DNA of 53,726 bases from Pseudobutyrivibrio sp. (lineage in GTDB: Bacteria > Bacillota > Clostridia > Lachnospirales > Lachnospiraceae), in the NCBI RefSeq assembly GCF_015057185.1, contig NZ_SVEV01000026.1, forward strand, positions 1-53,726, written 5' to 3'. This document shows, one piece after another, positions 614 to 41,954 of this stretch; position 1 is the stretch's first letter, and each line of letters starts with the position of its first letter. A program made the translations under genes and the position numbers. A model generated the notes under the pieces. The model was not told the origin of the DNA, made no database searches, and saw only the letters and a program-made list of their open reading frames with translations.

Positions 614-1696
614 TTGAAAAAAATACTTAAGCTTATTCTTTCTATTTTCATTATTATTCTACTAGTAGTTATCGGCTATTTAGCCTATGTATTTATCTCT
701 TATCAAAGAATTGAAGATAATTTACCATTGGATGTAGAATCTAAGGGTGCTCCATCTTCATCAATATCCACTGAAACCAATTATCGAATAGCATCAAATA
801 ATATTGGTTTTGGCGCATACCAGGATACATTCTCCTTCTTTATGGATGGTGGAACAGAATCTTGGGCCTTCTCTAAAGAAGATGTAATCAACAACACAAC
901 AGGCTTAATTGAAAATATCAAATCATTAAATCCTGATTTTATCATCCTGCAGGAAGTTGATGTAGACTCTACTCGCAGCTACCATGTAGATGAAGCAGCA
1001 CTGATGATTGATTCACTTTCTAAGCAATATGATGATTTTTCATATACCTTTGCTTGTAATTATGACAGCCCATTTTTAATGTATCCACTTACTCAGCCTC
1101 ATGGAAAATCCAAGGCTGGATTGCTTACCATAAGCACTGCAACAATCACTGATTCCATCAGACGTTCCCTTCCTATTGATGAAGGAATCACAAAGGTTTT
1201 GGATTTGGATAGATGCTATTCCAAAAATCGTATACCTGTAGACAATGGAAAGGAACTTGTAATCTACAACGTACATCTTTCTGCTTACAACAAAAATCCA
1301 GAGACATCTGAATACCAGCTAAAAATGCTTAATGAAGACATGTTAGCCGAAGCAGAGTCGGGAAACTATGTAATCGCCGGTGGCGATATGAACAAGGATT
1401 TATTAGGCGACTCATCAAAGTACTTCGGTGTAAATGGCGTATCTGTTAACTGGGCCGTAGCCTTTCCAACAGAACTACTAGATGATGAATTCACTCTTGT
1501 TGCCCCATTTGATGAATCAAATCCTGTTCCAACATGTCGAAATGCAGACATGCCTTATTGTGAAGAAGACTTCGTATTAACATTAGATGGCTTTATAGTT
1601 TCTTCTAATGTAGAGGTTGTAGAGTCTAATGTATTAGATTTACAGTTTAAATACTCAGATCACAACCCAGTTTATATGGATTTCATTCTCAAATAA
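614..1696 (+). CDS. Membrane-anchored endonuclease/exonuclease/phosphatase family protein
   Basis: This 360-residue protein has one N-terminal membrane segment (about 7-29), a short Ser/Thr-rich linker, and an extracellular EEP-fold hydrolase domain (about 57-360). Family landmarks are the metal-binding Glu in LQEVD (E114), a His in NVHLSAY (H221), the GGDMN motif (D258, N260) and the C-terminal SDHNPV motif (348-353). These are the catalytic positions of the DNase I / sphingomyelinase / inositol phosphatase superfamily, so it is probably an active metal-dependent phosphoesterase. The substrate cannot be told from sequence. The start is TTG at 614, eight bases behind an AAAGGAAT ribosome site; no nearer ATG fits. 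Its stop codon directly abuts the stop of the convergent gene at 1697. Confidence 0.85.
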   Translation: MKKILKLILSIFIIILLVVIGYLAYVFISYQRIEDNLPLDVESKGAPSSSISTETNYRIASNNIGFGAYQDTFSFFMDGGTESWAFSKEDVINNTTGLIENIKSLNPDFIILQEVDVDSTRSYHVDEAALMIDSLSKQYDDFSYTFACNYDSPFLMYPLTQPHGKSKAGLLTISTATITDSIRRSLPIDEGITKVLDLDRCYSKNRIPVDNGKELVIYNVHLSAYNKNPETSEYQLKMLNEDMLAEAESGNYVIAGGDMNKDLLGDSSKYFGVNGVSVNWAVAFPTELLDDEFTLVAPFDESNPVPTCRNADMPYCEEDFVLTLDGFIVSSNVEVVESNVLDLQFKYSDHNPVYMDFILK

Positions 1697-8000: not shown

Positions 8001-8550
8001 AAACCAAAAACTCATCTACGTTAATTGCAGATATAGGAGCTGATTTAAAGCCTCGGTAAAGCAATCGGGTACGTTTGTCTAGACCTTCGATAAAAGCACC
8101 AAATCTATCTGAATAAAATAGACTTACTGCTTCAGAAAATCGATTCTGGGCAAAATCCGCGTAATCCTTAAGTTCTTTGATTTCGCCTGTGGAGGTCATA
8201 AGTGGCTGTTTGCAATAAGTAATGGTAAATGGGATGTATTTTTCGTATCCAACAGCAACTACTACAAAATCTCCAGATAGCTCCTCCCCTACTTTGAAGT
8301 TGTAATCATCTACACTATAGTTAATTTTGACATTTACACTGTCAAATAATGGCTCCTCTAACTTGATGTAAGGATTGGTGCAATATACAACGCCTCGAAT
8401 CTTTACATTGTTATTGCTTTTGAAGCTTAATGTGCCATTAAATTTCTCTCCAATGAAGCATGTCTCATTAATTTGTTCAACTTCGAAATCTATATTTGGT
8501 TTTAAGTCTCCGAATTTATCCTCAGAAATCCGATAGATTCTCTTTCTCAA
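5017..8550 (-). CDS. Giant helical-repeat scaffold protein (DUF5717-like)
   Basis: A 1177-residue cytoplasmic protein without signal peptide or membrane segment. Residues 1 to about 290 form two beta-rich, Ig-like modules (for example CFIGEKFNGTLSF and ENVKGEIELSRSTWGYIDIEV). Residues about 300-1020 are almost entirely paired amphipathic helices of TPR/solenoid type, with many Leu, Tyr and acidic residues. Residues about 1030-1177 form a second beta-rich module. I believe this is the DUF5717 family, which has no assigned function. The start is TTG at 8550, behind a GAGGG site; no closer ATG is available. It is the first gene of the operon and has its own promoter and palindromic operator at 8643-8670. 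A scaffold for the adjacent Hsp70-like ATPase is the natural inference. Confidence 0.85.
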   Translation of the reverse strand: MRKRIYRISEDKFGDLKPNIDFEVEQINETCFIGEKFNGTLSFKSNNNVKIRGVVYCTNPYIKLEEPLFDSVNVKINYSVDDYNFKVGEELSGDFVVVAVGYEKYIPFTITYCKQPLMTSTGEIKELKDYADFAQNRFSEAVSLFYSDRFGAFIEGLDKRTRLLYRGFKSAPISAINVDEFLVSCGFKEKMTFDLEERCDKYYEINENVKGEIELSRSTWGYIDIEVSCDADFVSIDRTHITNDFFLGSIFTLNYYVHKEKMHAGTNYAKISFDYRDIHKEITIMATCLKEGETLESQSHKTNIAKLKACRLYEDFRLRNITANQWSTRTLELLDSLENDFSDDNFVLLMKALLYVTNNQKQEALWIIQDLKRTIEDKGSCEWAFLLYICTLIEREEDYVDRLTENIEGIFREHPDDVRIFWFLLFLRTEYIKNPASKLRDIAEWINTGYDSPLLYIEVYSIFLQDPYMIANFDDLNVKVLNWARKKKALSKNIAIQMVHVLETEHNFNPMVLPILSDCYDIYPDPRFLLAIVTYLLKAPTMEYSFIKWFALAIEENLHISGLFEAYMDALPLYSVDRLPKLLTMFFKYNNELTSEKKALLYANIVLHKDEDPDTYEQYESAIEIFSLEQLRMGKLDDNLAVCYQRLMEMGIFDNEVARLISELSFKKKIAVISSDVRRIFLYQDEFKLPTIANINDHRAYFNYIGKDGVIFLEDSKGYLFVDDEAYLLEDIIHPEAYMGNLKNLTSINLPYTLMDFDGDKEIQPDNEKALEEAELLLNSNQLSPDYLRKLYPKIINILKLHDREALIEKHFMNDADLKALNAEIIASVLETFIYRSKYEEAFYMIKHTNATMLKPEIATKLCQFIINQDTSKADDFLILMVASLVEKGYCHGDMIRYLIRFYVGPTKTLMKIFNHAYEKGEDVVEFAERIITQVLYRDFLPDGIMDIFEAYASRRNNKMIVEAFLTYEAHAYLSKGEDIPELIFSYIYNRYKKAQPVNESMRVALLKYLCTNKDLDDDDLEMLDILLADAILRNQYFGFFVNCNDKLKIKYHLYDKHFIEFNSDSRLPVTIVYSINNGPEIEEDMIEMYDGLYVKQFILFYGDQLEYQIYCDEISEDPIKSDTFVASDELEKTKGRYALMNDISRHNLYGELNELATSMKKYQGLQTVTNNIFSIL

Positions 8551-13477: not shown

Positions 13478-13487
13478 AAATTAATAG

Positions 13488-13826
13488 TGGATCTGACGGG
13501 AGTCGAACCCGTGTCCAAAAGCCAATTCCCGGCCCTTCTACGAGTGTAGTTTGTATTTTTACATTCCCTCCACATGACGCCCACAAACAGGCTGCATGCT
13601 TAAGTAGCTTCATAATACGCCCACTATCGCAAAGCTTAGATAATGTCGTTTCCTACAAGTTCGAAGCCTGGGTCCTAAGGTGTAGGTGCCCTAGGTCAGA
13701 CTGCTGCCATTAGGCAGCTAATGCTACTCTATCGTTAGCGTTTAATTTTAATTTTGCCCATTTAACCCATTAGCGTGGGACTCGCTTCTTCCGCTGCATG
13801 ACCCCTGTCGAAACCATGACAGACCC
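13488..13826 (-). ncRNA. ssrA: tmRNA (SsrA)
   Basis: The 5' end GGGTCTG (13820-13826) pairs with the 3' end CAGATCC (13489-13495) to form the acceptor stem, giving a mature RNA of about 339 bases. The T-arm GGTTCGACTCCCG sits just before the 3' end. The mRNA-like part encodes a tag from the GCT at 13737-13739 to the TAA at 13710-13712, read as ANDRVALAA-stop, ending in the LAA degradation signal. The CCA tail does not appear to be encoded, since the discriminator A is followed by CTA. It rescues stalled ribosomes together with SmpB, which is encoded just upstream at 14431, and RNase R at 15010. The RNA is transcribed from a promoter inside maf. Confidence 0.95.
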
Positions 13827-14430: not shown

Positions 14431-14895
14431 TTATCTAAGTGACATTTTGTAATCTCTCTCTGCCTCGCGCTTCATATCCTTCTTTTGAATATCCGCACGC
14501 TTATCGTAGAGCTTTTTACCTTTTGCAAGAGCAATTTTAACCTTTACAAGTCCATTATTAAGATAAACCTCCAAAGGAACGATTGTGTACCCACTCTCCT
14601 TGATTTTACTGAAAAGTCGATTAATCTCAGTCCTATGTAAAAGTAACTTTCTAGGACGAAGTGGGTCTCTGTTGAAAATATTGCCCTTCTCGTAAGGATT
14701 AACGTGCATCTGATATATGTACATTTCCCCATTATCAATACGTACAAAAGCCTCTTTGATAGAACACTGGCCCATTCTCATGGATTTTACCTCGGTGCCA
14801 TGAAGCTCGATACCAGCCTCATATTCCTCCTCCATAAAATATTCATGATAAGCCTTTTTATTATTTGCAATTAGCTTTCTGCCTTCTTTGTTCAT
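14431..14895 (-). CDS. smpB: SsrA-binding protein SmpB
   Basis: SmpB binds the tRNA-like part of tmRNA and brings it to stalled ribosomes. The protein starts [20 protein letters not shown], as usual for the family. [24 protein letters not shown] forms the beta-barrel RNA-binding face, and a basic C-terminal tail ends [21 protein letters not shown] chose the ATG at 14895 (154 residues) because a GGAG site lies eight bases ahead and the family normally starts there. A start at 14952 would add 19 unrelated residues and falls inside the palindromic element. It is followed by maf and tmRNA and preceded by rnr, the classic Firmicutes trans-translation cluster. Confidence 0.95.
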
Positions 14896-14913
14896 TACAT
14901 AATCTCCAAATCC

Positions 14914-14998
14914 GCTAGTTACATAGACAAGCCTTAGTATTTCTTCGCTCATCTAACACGATTCGCTTAAGAAATCTAAGAGCTTGTCTATTACTAGC
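14914..14998. repeat. Imperfect palindromic hairpin element, copy A
   Basis: This 85-bp element folds on itself. Outer arms GCTAGT/ACTAGC and ATAGACAAGC/GCTTGTCTAT are followed by CTTAG..ATTTCTT pairing with AAGAAAT..CTAAG. The tip is ATC/GAT around TAACAC, flanked by gctc and tcgc. It lies between the rnr stop and the smpB ribosome site, so it forms the immediate leader of smpB. Copy B is at 41855-41938. Where the two differ, paired bases tend to change together. Confidence 0.75.
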
Positions 14999-15009
14999 TC
15001 ATTTAAATA

Positions 15010-17265
15010 TTAAAAACGTTTAAACTCCTCAAGAATAAAATCAATTGTACGAGCCTGTTCATCAACAGAATCCAAAATGACAGTTACCGACTGTCCTAAT
15101 TTGAAGGTACGACCAGTGTGCTCTCCTACTAATGTAAGATTTTCTTCTATGAAATCATAGTGGTCATCATATAAAGTAGACACATGAACAAGCCCTTCCA
15201 CGGTGTTTTCAAGTTCCACATAAATTCCCCAACCTGTAACAGAAGAAATATTGCCTTGGAATTTCTGTCCAATGAATTCTTTCATGTATTGAACCATCTT
15301 TAGTTTATCTACTTCACGCTCGCAATCCTCAGCACGACGCTCAAGCTTGCTAGTTTGAATTGCAACCTCTGGAAGGATGCTCTCATAGTGAGAAAGCTTT
15401 CTCTCATTCATTCTACCTCTGAGATGATCCTTTATGATTCTGTGAATTTGTAAATCAGGATATCTTCTGATTGGAGATGTAAAGTGACAATAATACTGGG
15501 CTGCCAAACCAAAGTGGCCTTTACACTCTACATCATATCTAGCCTGTTGCATACTTCTGAGAGTCATTTTAGTGATAACAGCCTCATCCTCATGTCCTTT
15601 TAGAGATTCTAACATTTTCTGAATCTCCTTTGGATGAATATTGTCTGTTTTTCCTTTAAGCACATAACCGCATGCCCCTAAGAATTTGCCAAGAGTCTGC
15701 ATTTTCTCTGGATCAGGTGCACCGTGAACTCTGTATACAAAAGGTGATTCCATAAGATTAAAATGCTCTGCAACAGTTTCATTTGCTGCAAGCATGAAAT
15801 CCTCAATAAGCTTATGAGCATCGTTTCTCTCGTATGGAGCCAGCCCAATTACTTTTCCATTTTCGTCTATTAAAATATGAGTTTCAGGAAAATCAAAATC
15901 TATTGCGCCTCTCTTTTTGCGCTTAGCTCTAAGAATCTGTGAAAGCTCATACATTTTATCAATCATTTCTGACACATCAGCATACTTCTGACGCTCTGTT
16001 TCATCACCTGTCATAATGGCATAAACACTAGTATATGTCATGCGATGATTGCTATGGATAACTGACTCACATATCTCATGGTCAATAAGCTCGCCCTTTT
16101 TATTAAAGGTCATAATGCAAGAAAGGGCTAGTCTATCCTCTCCTTCATTTAAAGAACACATGCCATTAGAAAGAGTGTGTGGCAACATAGGAATAACTCT
16201 ATCTGCCAAATAAACAGAAGTTCCACGCTTTAATGCCTCTACATCAAGTGCCGATGACTCCTGTACATAATTTGTAACATCAGCAATATGTACACCCAGC
16301 ACATAATTACCATTTTCCATTACAAGTGAAACACCATCATCAATATCCTTTGTATCCTCACCATCAATAGTGACAACGCATAAATCTCTAAGATCATTAC
16401 GCCCAGCCATGTCTGCCTCTGAAACTGGCTTGGCTACTGTTGATGCCTGTTTGATTACCTTAGCAGGAAATTCTGATTCGATTCCAAAGCCACGAACAAT
16501 GGATAAAATATCTACACCAGGATCATTCTTATGGCCTAGTATCTCAGTAATATGTCCCTCTGGCTTGTGGCTATCATCACCATAATCATCAATATGGCAG
16601 ACAACCTTGTGACCGCTAACAGCTCCCATATCCTTACCTGCTGGGATAAAAATATCTCTTCCAAGCTTTTGGCTGTCAGCTACAACAAATCCAAAATTCT
16701 GGCTCTTTTCAAAAGTACCAACTACGTCCGAAAAACCATGTGTAATGATTCTAATTACTTTGGCCTCCTGGCGTTTGCCTGGCGCTCCAAAAGTGAGAAC
16801 AGCAGCAACAGTATCATCTTGCATAGCAAAGCCTGTATTGTCTCTGCCTACAAAATAATCTTCATCCTGTCCCTCTACCTCTATGAATCCAAATCCATCC
16901 TTGTGAGAAATAAATCTACCTATGATATCAGGCTCTACATTATCGTAATTAGGCTTGTTTGCCCTTTTTGCCACCTCATTAAGAGACTGCTTTTTAGCAG
17001 CCGCCTCTGCCTTTGTAGGCTTTTTAGAACGATGGTCTTTTGTTTTAATAAATTTAGGTCTATTTTCAGCGATTTGATATTTGCCTCGTTTTGTAATCTC
17101 TACCTGTCCTTCCTCAACAAGCTCCTGTAAAACCTGGGCAAATTCTGCGCGTTTATCCTTTTCTACATCTAAAAGAATTTCTAAATCCTTTTTCTTCATA
17201 GGGATATAAGCCGAGCTTTTGAAAACGTCCATTAAAAAATGTTTTTGTTTGTCGAATTCCTTCAT
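15010..17265 (-). CDS. rnr: Ribonuclease R
   Basis: A 751-residue 3'-5' exoribonuclease of the RNB family. It has an N-terminal winged-helix segment (about 1-65) and a Lys-rich linker. Two cold-shock domains (about 85-235) precede the RNB catalytic domain, which contains the metal-binding Asp cluster TIDGEDTKDIDDG (about 297-309) and HFTSPIRRYPDL. A C-terminal S1 domain (about 665-745) completes it. It degrades structured RNA and, with SmpB-tmRNA, non-stop messages. The start is ATG with AGGAGG. It lies 33 bp after the secG terminator, with no obvious promoter in the gap, so some read-through from secG is likely. Confidence 0.96.
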   Translation of the reverse strand: MKEFDKQKHFLMDVFKSSAYIPMKKKDLEILLDVEKDKRAEFAQVLQELVEEGQVEITKRGKYQIAENRPKFIKTKDHRSKKPTKAEAAAKKQSLNEVAKRANKPNYDNVEPDIIGRFISHKDGFGFIEVEGQDEDYFVGRDNTGFAMQDDTVAAVLTFGAPGKRQEAKVIRIITHGFSDVVGTFEKSQNFGFVVADSQKLGRDIFIPAGKDMGAVSGHKVVCHIDDYGDDSHKPEGHITEILGHKNDPGVDILSIVRGFGIESEFPAKVIKQASTVAKPVSEADMAGRNDLRDLCVVTIDGEDTKDIDDGVSLVMENGNYVLGVHIADVTNYVQESSALDVEALKRGTSVYLADRVIPMLPHTLSNGMCSLNEGEDRLALSCIMTFNKKGELIDHEICESVIHSNHRMTYTSVYAIMTGDETERQKYADVSEMIDKMYELSQILRAKRKKRGAIDFDFPETHILIDENGKVIGLAPYERNDAHKLIEDFMLAANETVAEHFNLMESPFVYRVHGAPDPEKMQTLGKFLGACGYVLKGKTDNIHPKEIQKMLESLKGHEDEAVITKMTLRSMQQARYDVECKGHFGLAAQYYCHFTSPIRRYPDLQIHRIIKDHLRGRMNERKLSHYESILPEVAIQTSKLERRAEDCEREVDKLKMVQYMKEFIGQKFQGNISSVTGWGIYVELENTVEGLVHVSTLYDDHYDFIEENLTLVGEHTGRTFKLGQSVTVILDSVDEQARTIDFILEEFKRF

Positions 17266-41799: not shown

Positions 41800-41827
41800 A
41801 TTCTATCACACTATGCTCCAATGTCAA
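41800..41827 (-). promoter_or_regulatory. Strong promoter for ilvN-ilvC
   Basis: On the minus strand a perfect TTGACA (41822-41827) and TAGAAT (41800-41805) are spaced 16 bp apart, with TGA just before the -10 (extended -10). The leader of about 60 bases shows no T-box or attenuator that I can recognise. Confidence 0.75.
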
Positions 41828-41854
41828 CAGAAAATTTAGAGTAAATTTAATTCC

Positions 41855-41938
41855 GTTGGTCACGGATATAAGCCTTAGTAATTCTCTGCTCGGCAAAACG
41901 CCTCGCTTAAGAATTCTAAGAGCTCGATGCCTACCAAC
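41855..41938. repeat. Imperfect palindromic hairpin element, copy B
   Basis: This 84-bp element has the same layout as copy A at 14914-14998. Outer arms are GTTGGT/ACCAAC, inner arms CTTAG..AATTCT with AGAATT..CTAAG, and the tip is GGC/GCC around AAAAC, again flanked by gctc and tcgc. It lies between the phosphopantetheinyl transferase terminator and the ilvN promoter, in the same orientation relative to its neighbours as copy A. Confidence 0.75.
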
Positions 41939-41954
41939 TCATCTAAAACACTAC

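Follow-up and report, generated by a model that had tools for sequence, protein, structure and literature searches.

The Window and Its Two Copies

The window, by which we mean the whole stretch of DNA analyzed (53,726 nucleotides from Pseudobutyrivibrio sp.), contains two copies of a long hairpin element, both on the minus strand. Copy A (14911–15002) lies between rnr (15010–17265, minus strand; RNase R, with Pfam domains RNB, CSD2, OB_RNB, and S1) and smpB (14431–14895, minus strand; Pfam PF01668). Copy B (41852–41942) lies between an ACPS-family gene and the gene for the acetolactate synthase small subunit, both assigned by Pfam; at A and B alike the flanking genes are on the minus strand, the same as the folded strand. 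The covariance model gives 106.8 bits to A and 85.7 bits to B, which are themselves among the copies used to build it, and the scores that follow in the window are 21 bits for the complement of A, then 11.7 and below. The initial annotation had reported two distant hairpins, and the model finds them at the same places; its span for the first, 14914–14998, covers exactly the whole outer stem of A and is too short for the full element.

Two further features were seen at these loci. A tmRNA gene lies beyond smpB (13485–13826, minus strand; Rfam RF00023, 137.6 bits), so that copy A sits in an rnr–smpB–tmRNA neighborhood. Downstream of copy B, between it and the acetolactate synthase small-subunit gene, the sequence reads as a promoter-like TTGACA-N16-TAGAAT (41800–41827, minus strand); copy B may therefore lie ahead of a putative promoter serving the gene that follows, and so belong to the trailer of the preceding gene rather than to a leader.

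The element has the overall shape of a single long hairpin with recurrent irregularities. On the folded strand, here named R, a base stem (GCnnGU/ACnnGC) is followed by an internal loop with A opposite GUA, and then by a helix of ten columns, five of them variable (one mostly mismatched, in 21 of 30 copies) and the rest CAAGC/GCUUG. Above this come a single bulged U, CUUAG/CUAAG, a bulged A, and RUUUCU/AGAAAY; the apex consists of a GC step, a tandem G·A, a three-pair stem, and a loop, and some low-scoring copies have another apex. In copy A (all positions minus strand, from the alignment and structure), the base stem P1 has its 5′ arm GCTAGT at 14993–14998 and its 3′ arm ACTAGC at 14914–14919; P1 cells are 98.3% paired in the alignment, and five of the six pairs have changed on both sides. 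The GTA side of the internal loop is at 14920–14922, opposite the single A at 14992; the bulged U between the two lower helices is at 14981, and the middle helix has its bulged A, an A in most aligned copies, on the 3′ side at 14938. The tandem G·A step is formed by GA at 14963–14964 (5′ side) and its partner GA at 14949–14950 (3′ side).

Predicted folding energies are −41.1 kcal/mol for copy A against −15.5 (SD 2.9) in 200 mononucleotide shuffles, and −33.0 kcal/mol for copy B against −20.3 (SD 3.1) in as many. The stems that had been named in the two copies do pair, and the changes noted on both sides are real, as is the intermediate stretch that pairs in A and poorly in B, where four positions are mismatched. 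By themselves, A and B are weak evidence that pairing has been kept.

Family Size and Range

Queried with copy A at the DNA level, the host genome gave 40 matches at E ≤ 10, 31 of them with E below 0.003. The initial annotation had proposed a covariance-model search, and one model (R1) was built from 30 copies aligned by sequence only (alignment A1); it yielded 108 matches at E ≤ 1 among 150 candidates scored in the host genome, or about 110 copies. A set of 97 copies, which is most and not all of those in the host genome, was taken from 40 stretches, the window, and eight short loci (103 matches minus six seen twice). Scores in this set lie between 107 and 39 bits, apart from a single copy at 25. 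The model has 92 positions, and 95 of the 97 copies are 89–101 long; the other two (74 and 151) were left out of the counts given below for 95 copies of the host genome. Eleven copies, ten on the same strand and several of them weakly scoring variants, occur within one 40-kb region (L183 and L184; G000:C25:10000–49999).

In the genus Pseudobutyrivibrio, 28 of 29 genomes match a second model (R2) at E ≤ 0.001, including all 21 of good quality, each of which has 20 or more copies; the total is at least 1,683 matches, a lower bound set by the 149 candidates scored per genome. Few or no matches were found in certain incomplete genomes (G020, none; G006, one; G003, eight), and other incomplete genomes are rich in them. 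In the wider family Lachnospiraceae, R1 matches two of 348 genomes, both Pseudobutyrivibrio, and R2 one of 100, from the same genus, with 12 and 43 candidates scored per genome, respectively, a depth at which a very divergent relative could be missed. Outside the family but within the same order, none of 16 genomes matches the hairpin model. SmpB relatives at 92–96% also indicate Pseudobutyrivibrio as the genus, although one of these records bears the title Butyrivibrio fibrisolvens 16/4.

The window has no gathering-level match to Rfam 15 over an element. Among 24 loci, some overlapping, the sole Rfam match at E ≤ 1 over an element was to MIR7993 (L153:554–629), on a low-scoring copy; with 27.5 bits where the cut-off is 100, and E = 0.95, it is at chance level and was rejected. 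Away from the element, a sub-threshold match to ssnA was noted (L003:2381–2438, the same as L041:2370–2427; 26 bits against a cut-off of 37.3). No description of the hairpin was found in the open-access literature searched for Pseudobutyrivibrio and Butyrivibrio repeats, part of which was judged by title, and the main text of PMC8040213 has no occurrence of Butyrivibrio or Lachnospir.

Gain, Loss, and Conservation at Orthologous Sites

The rnr–smpB gap could be read at 21 other Pseudobutyrivibrio loci (two more were cut off). Seven are occupied, one of them by a copy in inverted orientation (L130), and 14 are empty, so no single copy need be essential. The comparison of three relatives took in 24 copies that lacked a matched orthologue; 37 target regions were fetched for 22 of them, and eight sites were read closely. 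Clean empty counterparts were found for L157, L168, L226, L244, and L176; the site of L244 is empty in the other two species alike, an indication of gain. The other sites among the eight are L264, which gave no such clean counterpart, and L182 and L165, taken up below. At many of the remaining target sites the counterpart holds a copy or other sequence. The L157 copy and the rnr–smpB copy are present in G391 and G393 and absent in G392, the genome nearest to G391 by its rnr gene, and from these two cases losses, too, seem to be clean. A nested arrangement occurs in L275, the orthologue of L158 and L171, with a whole element inside the stem of another. L311 and L291, the counterparts of L182 and L165, carry a short terminator-like hairpin that resembles the element base minus its apex. 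This presence and absence, inversion, and nesting at orthologous sites bear out the earlier suggestion of a mobile hairpin.

With regard to a MITE identity, empty sites were found; no consistent target-site duplication was seen by eye, and no parent transposon was identified. There was no clear signal of the 5′-truncation associated with retrotransposition (outside full copies, 30 5′-type matches against 23 in shuffled sequence, and six 3′-type matches against two), and several remnants have the look of a central deletion. Y1 transposases have a match in 10 of 29 genus genomes, with one match in the host genome; none was found in G011, G012, G016, or G018, which carry 71–100 copies, and no element was found at any of 18 Y1 loci, so a resident Y1/RAYT transposase is not supported as the mobilizer. 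Copy A had no blastn match that would indicate a phage or plasmid carrier; a gapped pattern picked out eight viral contigs, of which the model scored none at E ≤ 0.1, and on these searches a phage or plasmid carrier was rejected. Integron attC sites were considered and dropped because the copies are dispersed.

Several variants were noted in passing. In the rnr–smpB gap of another species, a copy is stretched to 170 nt with small palindromes inside (L112:2807–2976). A possible split copy (L185:8085–8240) has a 5′-type motif at 8085 and a 3′-type motif at 8224, separated by other sequence. A further copy is common to two related species, at a similar distance beyond smpB in each (L103:5755–5848 and L104:5748–5841, minus strand). 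In L176, upstream of the copy at 1501–1592 (minus strand), a different-looking GC-rich palindromic stretch, GTTGCGGCT...AGCCGCAA, adjoins the element; as the orthologous gap in L309 lacks this stretch, another repeat family may be present.

Copies that stay in place are closely conserved. Both flanks were matched for 37 orthologous pairs, 23 of which have a measurable downstream coding stretch, and in 19 of these 23 the identity of the element exceeds that of third codon positions (medians 97.8% and 78.7%; Wilcoxon p = 1.5 × 10⁻⁴); the pairs are not independent, as three genomes were compared mutually and some pairs share a copy. The rnr–smpB copy is 98.9% identical between two species, and the third positions of smpB are 56% identical. 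Against the upstream spacer, the element is the better conserved in 13 of 16 pairs, a comparison confined to pairs with more than 92% element identity and a measurable spacer, which favors the element. At a few orthologous sites the variants differ strongly, with many paired changes at once (L167/L252, 64% identity; the nested L275 against L158 and L171, 77%); here stepwise change and replacement by another copy are equally likely. Three further low pairs (54.5–69%) match neighboring tandem copies and are probably not true orthologues.

Placement among Genes

Genes were called with a simple script, and no called gene spans the middle of any of the 97 copies. In co-directional gaps of the host genome, 65 copies are sense and 14 antisense (p = 5 × 10⁻⁹); 13 others are convergent, three divergent, and two at contig ends, against a background, for gaps of at least 20 nt, of 274 co-directional, 38 convergent, and 48 divergent. 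In three other species, 100 copies (mostly the best-scoring per genome) comprise 74 sense, 21 convergent, three antisense, and no divergent, with two left unassigned. Sense copies begin a median of 48 nt after the preceding stop and end a median of 20 nt before the next start codon (5–30 nt in 47 of 65).

Convergent copies differ in their base and flanks. The base stem has a median of 11 bp in the 13 convergent copies and 6 bp in 64 sense copies (p = 3 × 10⁻⁵), being 6–17 bp in 12 of the 13 and 1 bp in the remaining one, and the flanks have more T after the stem and more A before it. On the R strand, TTTT follows the stem in four of 13 convergent and three of 64 sense copies; AAAA, equivalent to a T tract on the opposite strand, precedes it in 10 of 13 and 10 of 64. 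As the opposite-strand tract is the commoner, a terminator role may serve the converging gene.

The R strand is more stable than its complement in 95 of 95 copies, and the 14 antisense copies of the host genome keep the R-strand fold equally well (95.9% paired; 13 G·U and no A·C). This is the main result against a reading in terms of mRNA, as the fold may have been selected for mobility and not for a role in sense mRNA.

That observation is one of several that would suit purely selfish palindromic DNA, its hairpin being the signal for a single-strand transposase (as in REP/RAYT or IS200/IS605 systems) and its placement no more than tolerated insertion. Gain, loss, nesting, and inversion, the one Y1 match in the host genome, and the avoidance of genes and divergent gaps agree with this, as does a GTAG at the foot of the inner hairpin like that of GTAG-tagged REPs (PMC3733652). 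Against it stand a sense bias as strong as 65:14 and 74:3 and orthologous copies that surpass both third codon positions and spacer; Y1 matches, moreover, are missing from several copy-rich genomes, and the Y1 loci contain no element. Purely selfish DNA is a serious minority possibility, with perhaps one chance in a few.

A regulon-type cis-regulatory RNA, that is, a protein- or ligand-binding leader controlling the downstream gene, is less probable still, and we regard it as unlikely. The short distance from most sense copies to the next start codon would be expected of a leader, and the recurrent irregular loops suggest a bound partner. Yet no gene follows the 13 convergent copies in their own direction, only three of 97 copies occupy divergent gaps, where a leader role is the sole possibility, and presence at the same gene varies by species; moreover, Rfam gives no credible match, and riboswitches are not typically single hairpins.

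Preservation of the Fold

The 30 copies of A1 allowed the earlier claim of preserved base pairing to be tested statistically, and it was upheld. Paired cells are standard in 93.4% of cases against 77.6% in shuffles; 26 of 33 pairs have changed on both sides (15.0 in shuffles), and the cells so changed number 170 against a shuffle mean of 48, a value reached by none of 500 shuffles, with slid partners giving at most 21. The covariation score is 0.466 against 0.161 when shuffled (again reached by none of 500) and at most 0.085 for slid partners. Weakest of the measures is the count of further pair types, 56 against 47.0 in shuffles, which one shuffle in 500 attained. On the sequence-only alignment, G·U exceeds A·C by 23 to 9 (p = 0.02); on model-fitted alignments the counts are 102 to 13 and 86 to 7, though fitting may lean towards structure. 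With this strand-specific covariation, the conservation in place, and the want of a credible Rfam match, the suggestion of an undescribed RNA motif is also sustained.

The irregularities are kept as well as the pairs. The lone A of the internal loop is present in 97 of 97 copies and the GTA opposite in 93 (GTG in three, TTA in one), the bulged U in 30 of 30 copies of A1, 92 of 97 in the wider set, and 76 of 95 in three other species, and the tandem G·A in 30 of 30, 82 of 97 (missing in 15), and 79 of 95, respectively; by these counts the base of the fold is its most constant part. Positions outside the base stem also co-vary, TGA occurring with GGA in 22 copies and ATA with GAG in 10 with no crossed combination (p = 1.6 × 10⁻⁸), a linkage that could alternatively derive from the common ancestry of two subfamilies.

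Palindromes can undergo arm-to-arm correction, so matched arms might in principle result from gene conversion or from template switching during replication, without any selection for the fold, and the many paired changes made at once at some orthologous sites are of the kind expected. Such correction would erase irregularities, however, and the A/GUA loop, bulged U, and tandem G·A persist in nearly all copies or most of them; nor does correction predict an excess of G·U over A·C, and we consider this origin very improbable. A remnant of coding sequence, raised by the initial annotation from the frame ELV...LL(D/E)FLSE (LLDFLSE in one form), over which A and B are both open, is refuted by a stop in 90 of 95 copies, lengths without a three-base rhythm, and the placement of all 97 copies outside called genes. 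Neither a lack of further copies in related genomes nor codon-type conservation, both looked for, was found.

Proposed Role

Our preferred interpretation, held with moderate confidence, is that of a domesticated ERIC- or REP-like mobile repeat, which spreads as mobile DNA and is held at gene junctions for the role of its RNA. The number of copies, the strand-specific compensatory fold, the intergenic and mostly sense placement, the gain, loss, inversion, and nesting, and the conservation of orthologues support it directly; transcription, an effect on message ends and decay, and recognition by a protein are what we infer beyond them. By analogy with ERIC, REP, and bcr repeats, the Pseudobutyrivibrio element is probably transcribed. 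The transcribed R strand (about 92 nt) would fold where the preceding message ends, or in the space from one cistron to the next; its irregular stem could there resist or direct exonucleases and so separate the fates of neighboring cistrons. Between convergent genes, the lengthened base stem and A/T-rich flanks might supply the core of an intrinsic terminator; the presence of a T tract on the R strand after only four of 13 convergent copies counts against this part of the junction-hairpin reading. The recurrent non-canonical features may be recognized by an RNase, an RNA-binding protein, or the mobilizing enzyme. Further points that weigh against the preferred interpretation are the empty rnr–smpB gaps, the strongly different variants at a few orthologous sites, the possible position of copy B ahead of a promoter, and the loss of the tandem G·A step from 15 of 97 copies.

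A more speculative extension, to which we give low odds, is that one protein-recognized RNA hairpin, dispersed to many junctions, makes up, within this one genus, a genome-wide post-transcriptional network dependent on a single RNA-binding factor. It is equally tentative that such a network would set transcript ends, decay, and cistron balance while its copies are gained and lost between species.

REP and ERIC repeats have long raised the question of whether such elements are selfish or useful. Here, a mobile hairpin whose fold and copies are closely preserved suggests that the cell has put the element to use. With 20 or more copies per good genome, presence and absence between species, near-identical orthologues, and a precise fold, counting and simple mutants should allow selection in place to be told apart from mobility. 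An abundant element that Rfam does not contain is also put on record for Pseudobutyrivibrio genomes of the gut and rumen.

Comparison with Known Repeats

One of the closest likenesses by description is to the ERIC repeats of enterobacteria, Yersinia, and Vibrio, which are about 69–127 bp long, form a single long stem-loop, and are intergenic in tens to hundreds of copies; those of Yersinia are reported to regulate neighboring genes through RNA hairpin folding (PMC2267715). The Pseudobutyrivibrio element shares the size, the one long stem-loop, the intergenic position, and the multiple copies. It differs, as far as that source describes ERIC, in occurring in another phylum and in having non-canonical loops, a base stem that is longer at convergent genes, and nested copies.

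REPINs are here grouped with GTAG-tagged REP/RAYT systems. The GTAG-tagged REPs themselves are described as 20–40 bp palindromes with an unpaired GTAG at one end and RAYT transposases, found mostly between unidirectional and convergent genes, with the uni-REPs close to the preceding stop (PMC3733652). Likenesses on this description are the palindromic form, the intergenic position in unidirectional and convergent gaps, and the GTAG at the hairpin foot (PMC3733652). In contrast, the Pseudobutyrivibrio element is about 92 nt long, outside the 20–40 bp range, and has GTAG (GTAA in some copies) inside a longer stem with GTAAC opposite; its GTA is conserved but lies between two helices, and the next G or A pairs with C or U on the other side. 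Its sense copies end near the next start codon, whereas uni-REPs are described as lying near the preceding stop (PMC3733652), and an associated Y1 (RAYT) transposase is lacking, most Pseudobutyrivibrio genomes having no Y1 transposase at all.

Intrinsic terminators resemble the convergent copies, 12 of 13 of which have a base stem of 6–17 bp, with A/T-rich flanks; they differ in that the element stem carries a long structured apex and that 61 of 64 sense copies are without TTTT. The bcr repeats of the Bacillus cereus group are likewise similar by description, being intergenic and in part MITE-like or endowed with a conserved RNA structure. Of these repeats, 84 of 165 and 62 of 155 were detected in mRNA, whether as UTR, as intercistronic sequence, or as separate parts (PMC3446304). 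In that account, MITE-like behavior (bcr1–3) and conserved RNA structure (bcr10 and bcr18) belong to different families, whereas the Pseudobutyrivibrio element shows mobility and RNA structure in one (PMC3446304).

The element has all the characters of an interspersed intergenic palindrome (a long stem-loop, many copies, intergenic position, and site polymorphism). As it departs from the GTAG REPs in size, transposase, and position relative to genes, it is filed as a new family of interspersed palindromes, and as a variant form in that one family unites mobility with an irregular RNA fold, itself closely kept, and with a base stem whose form at convergent genes is terminator-like.
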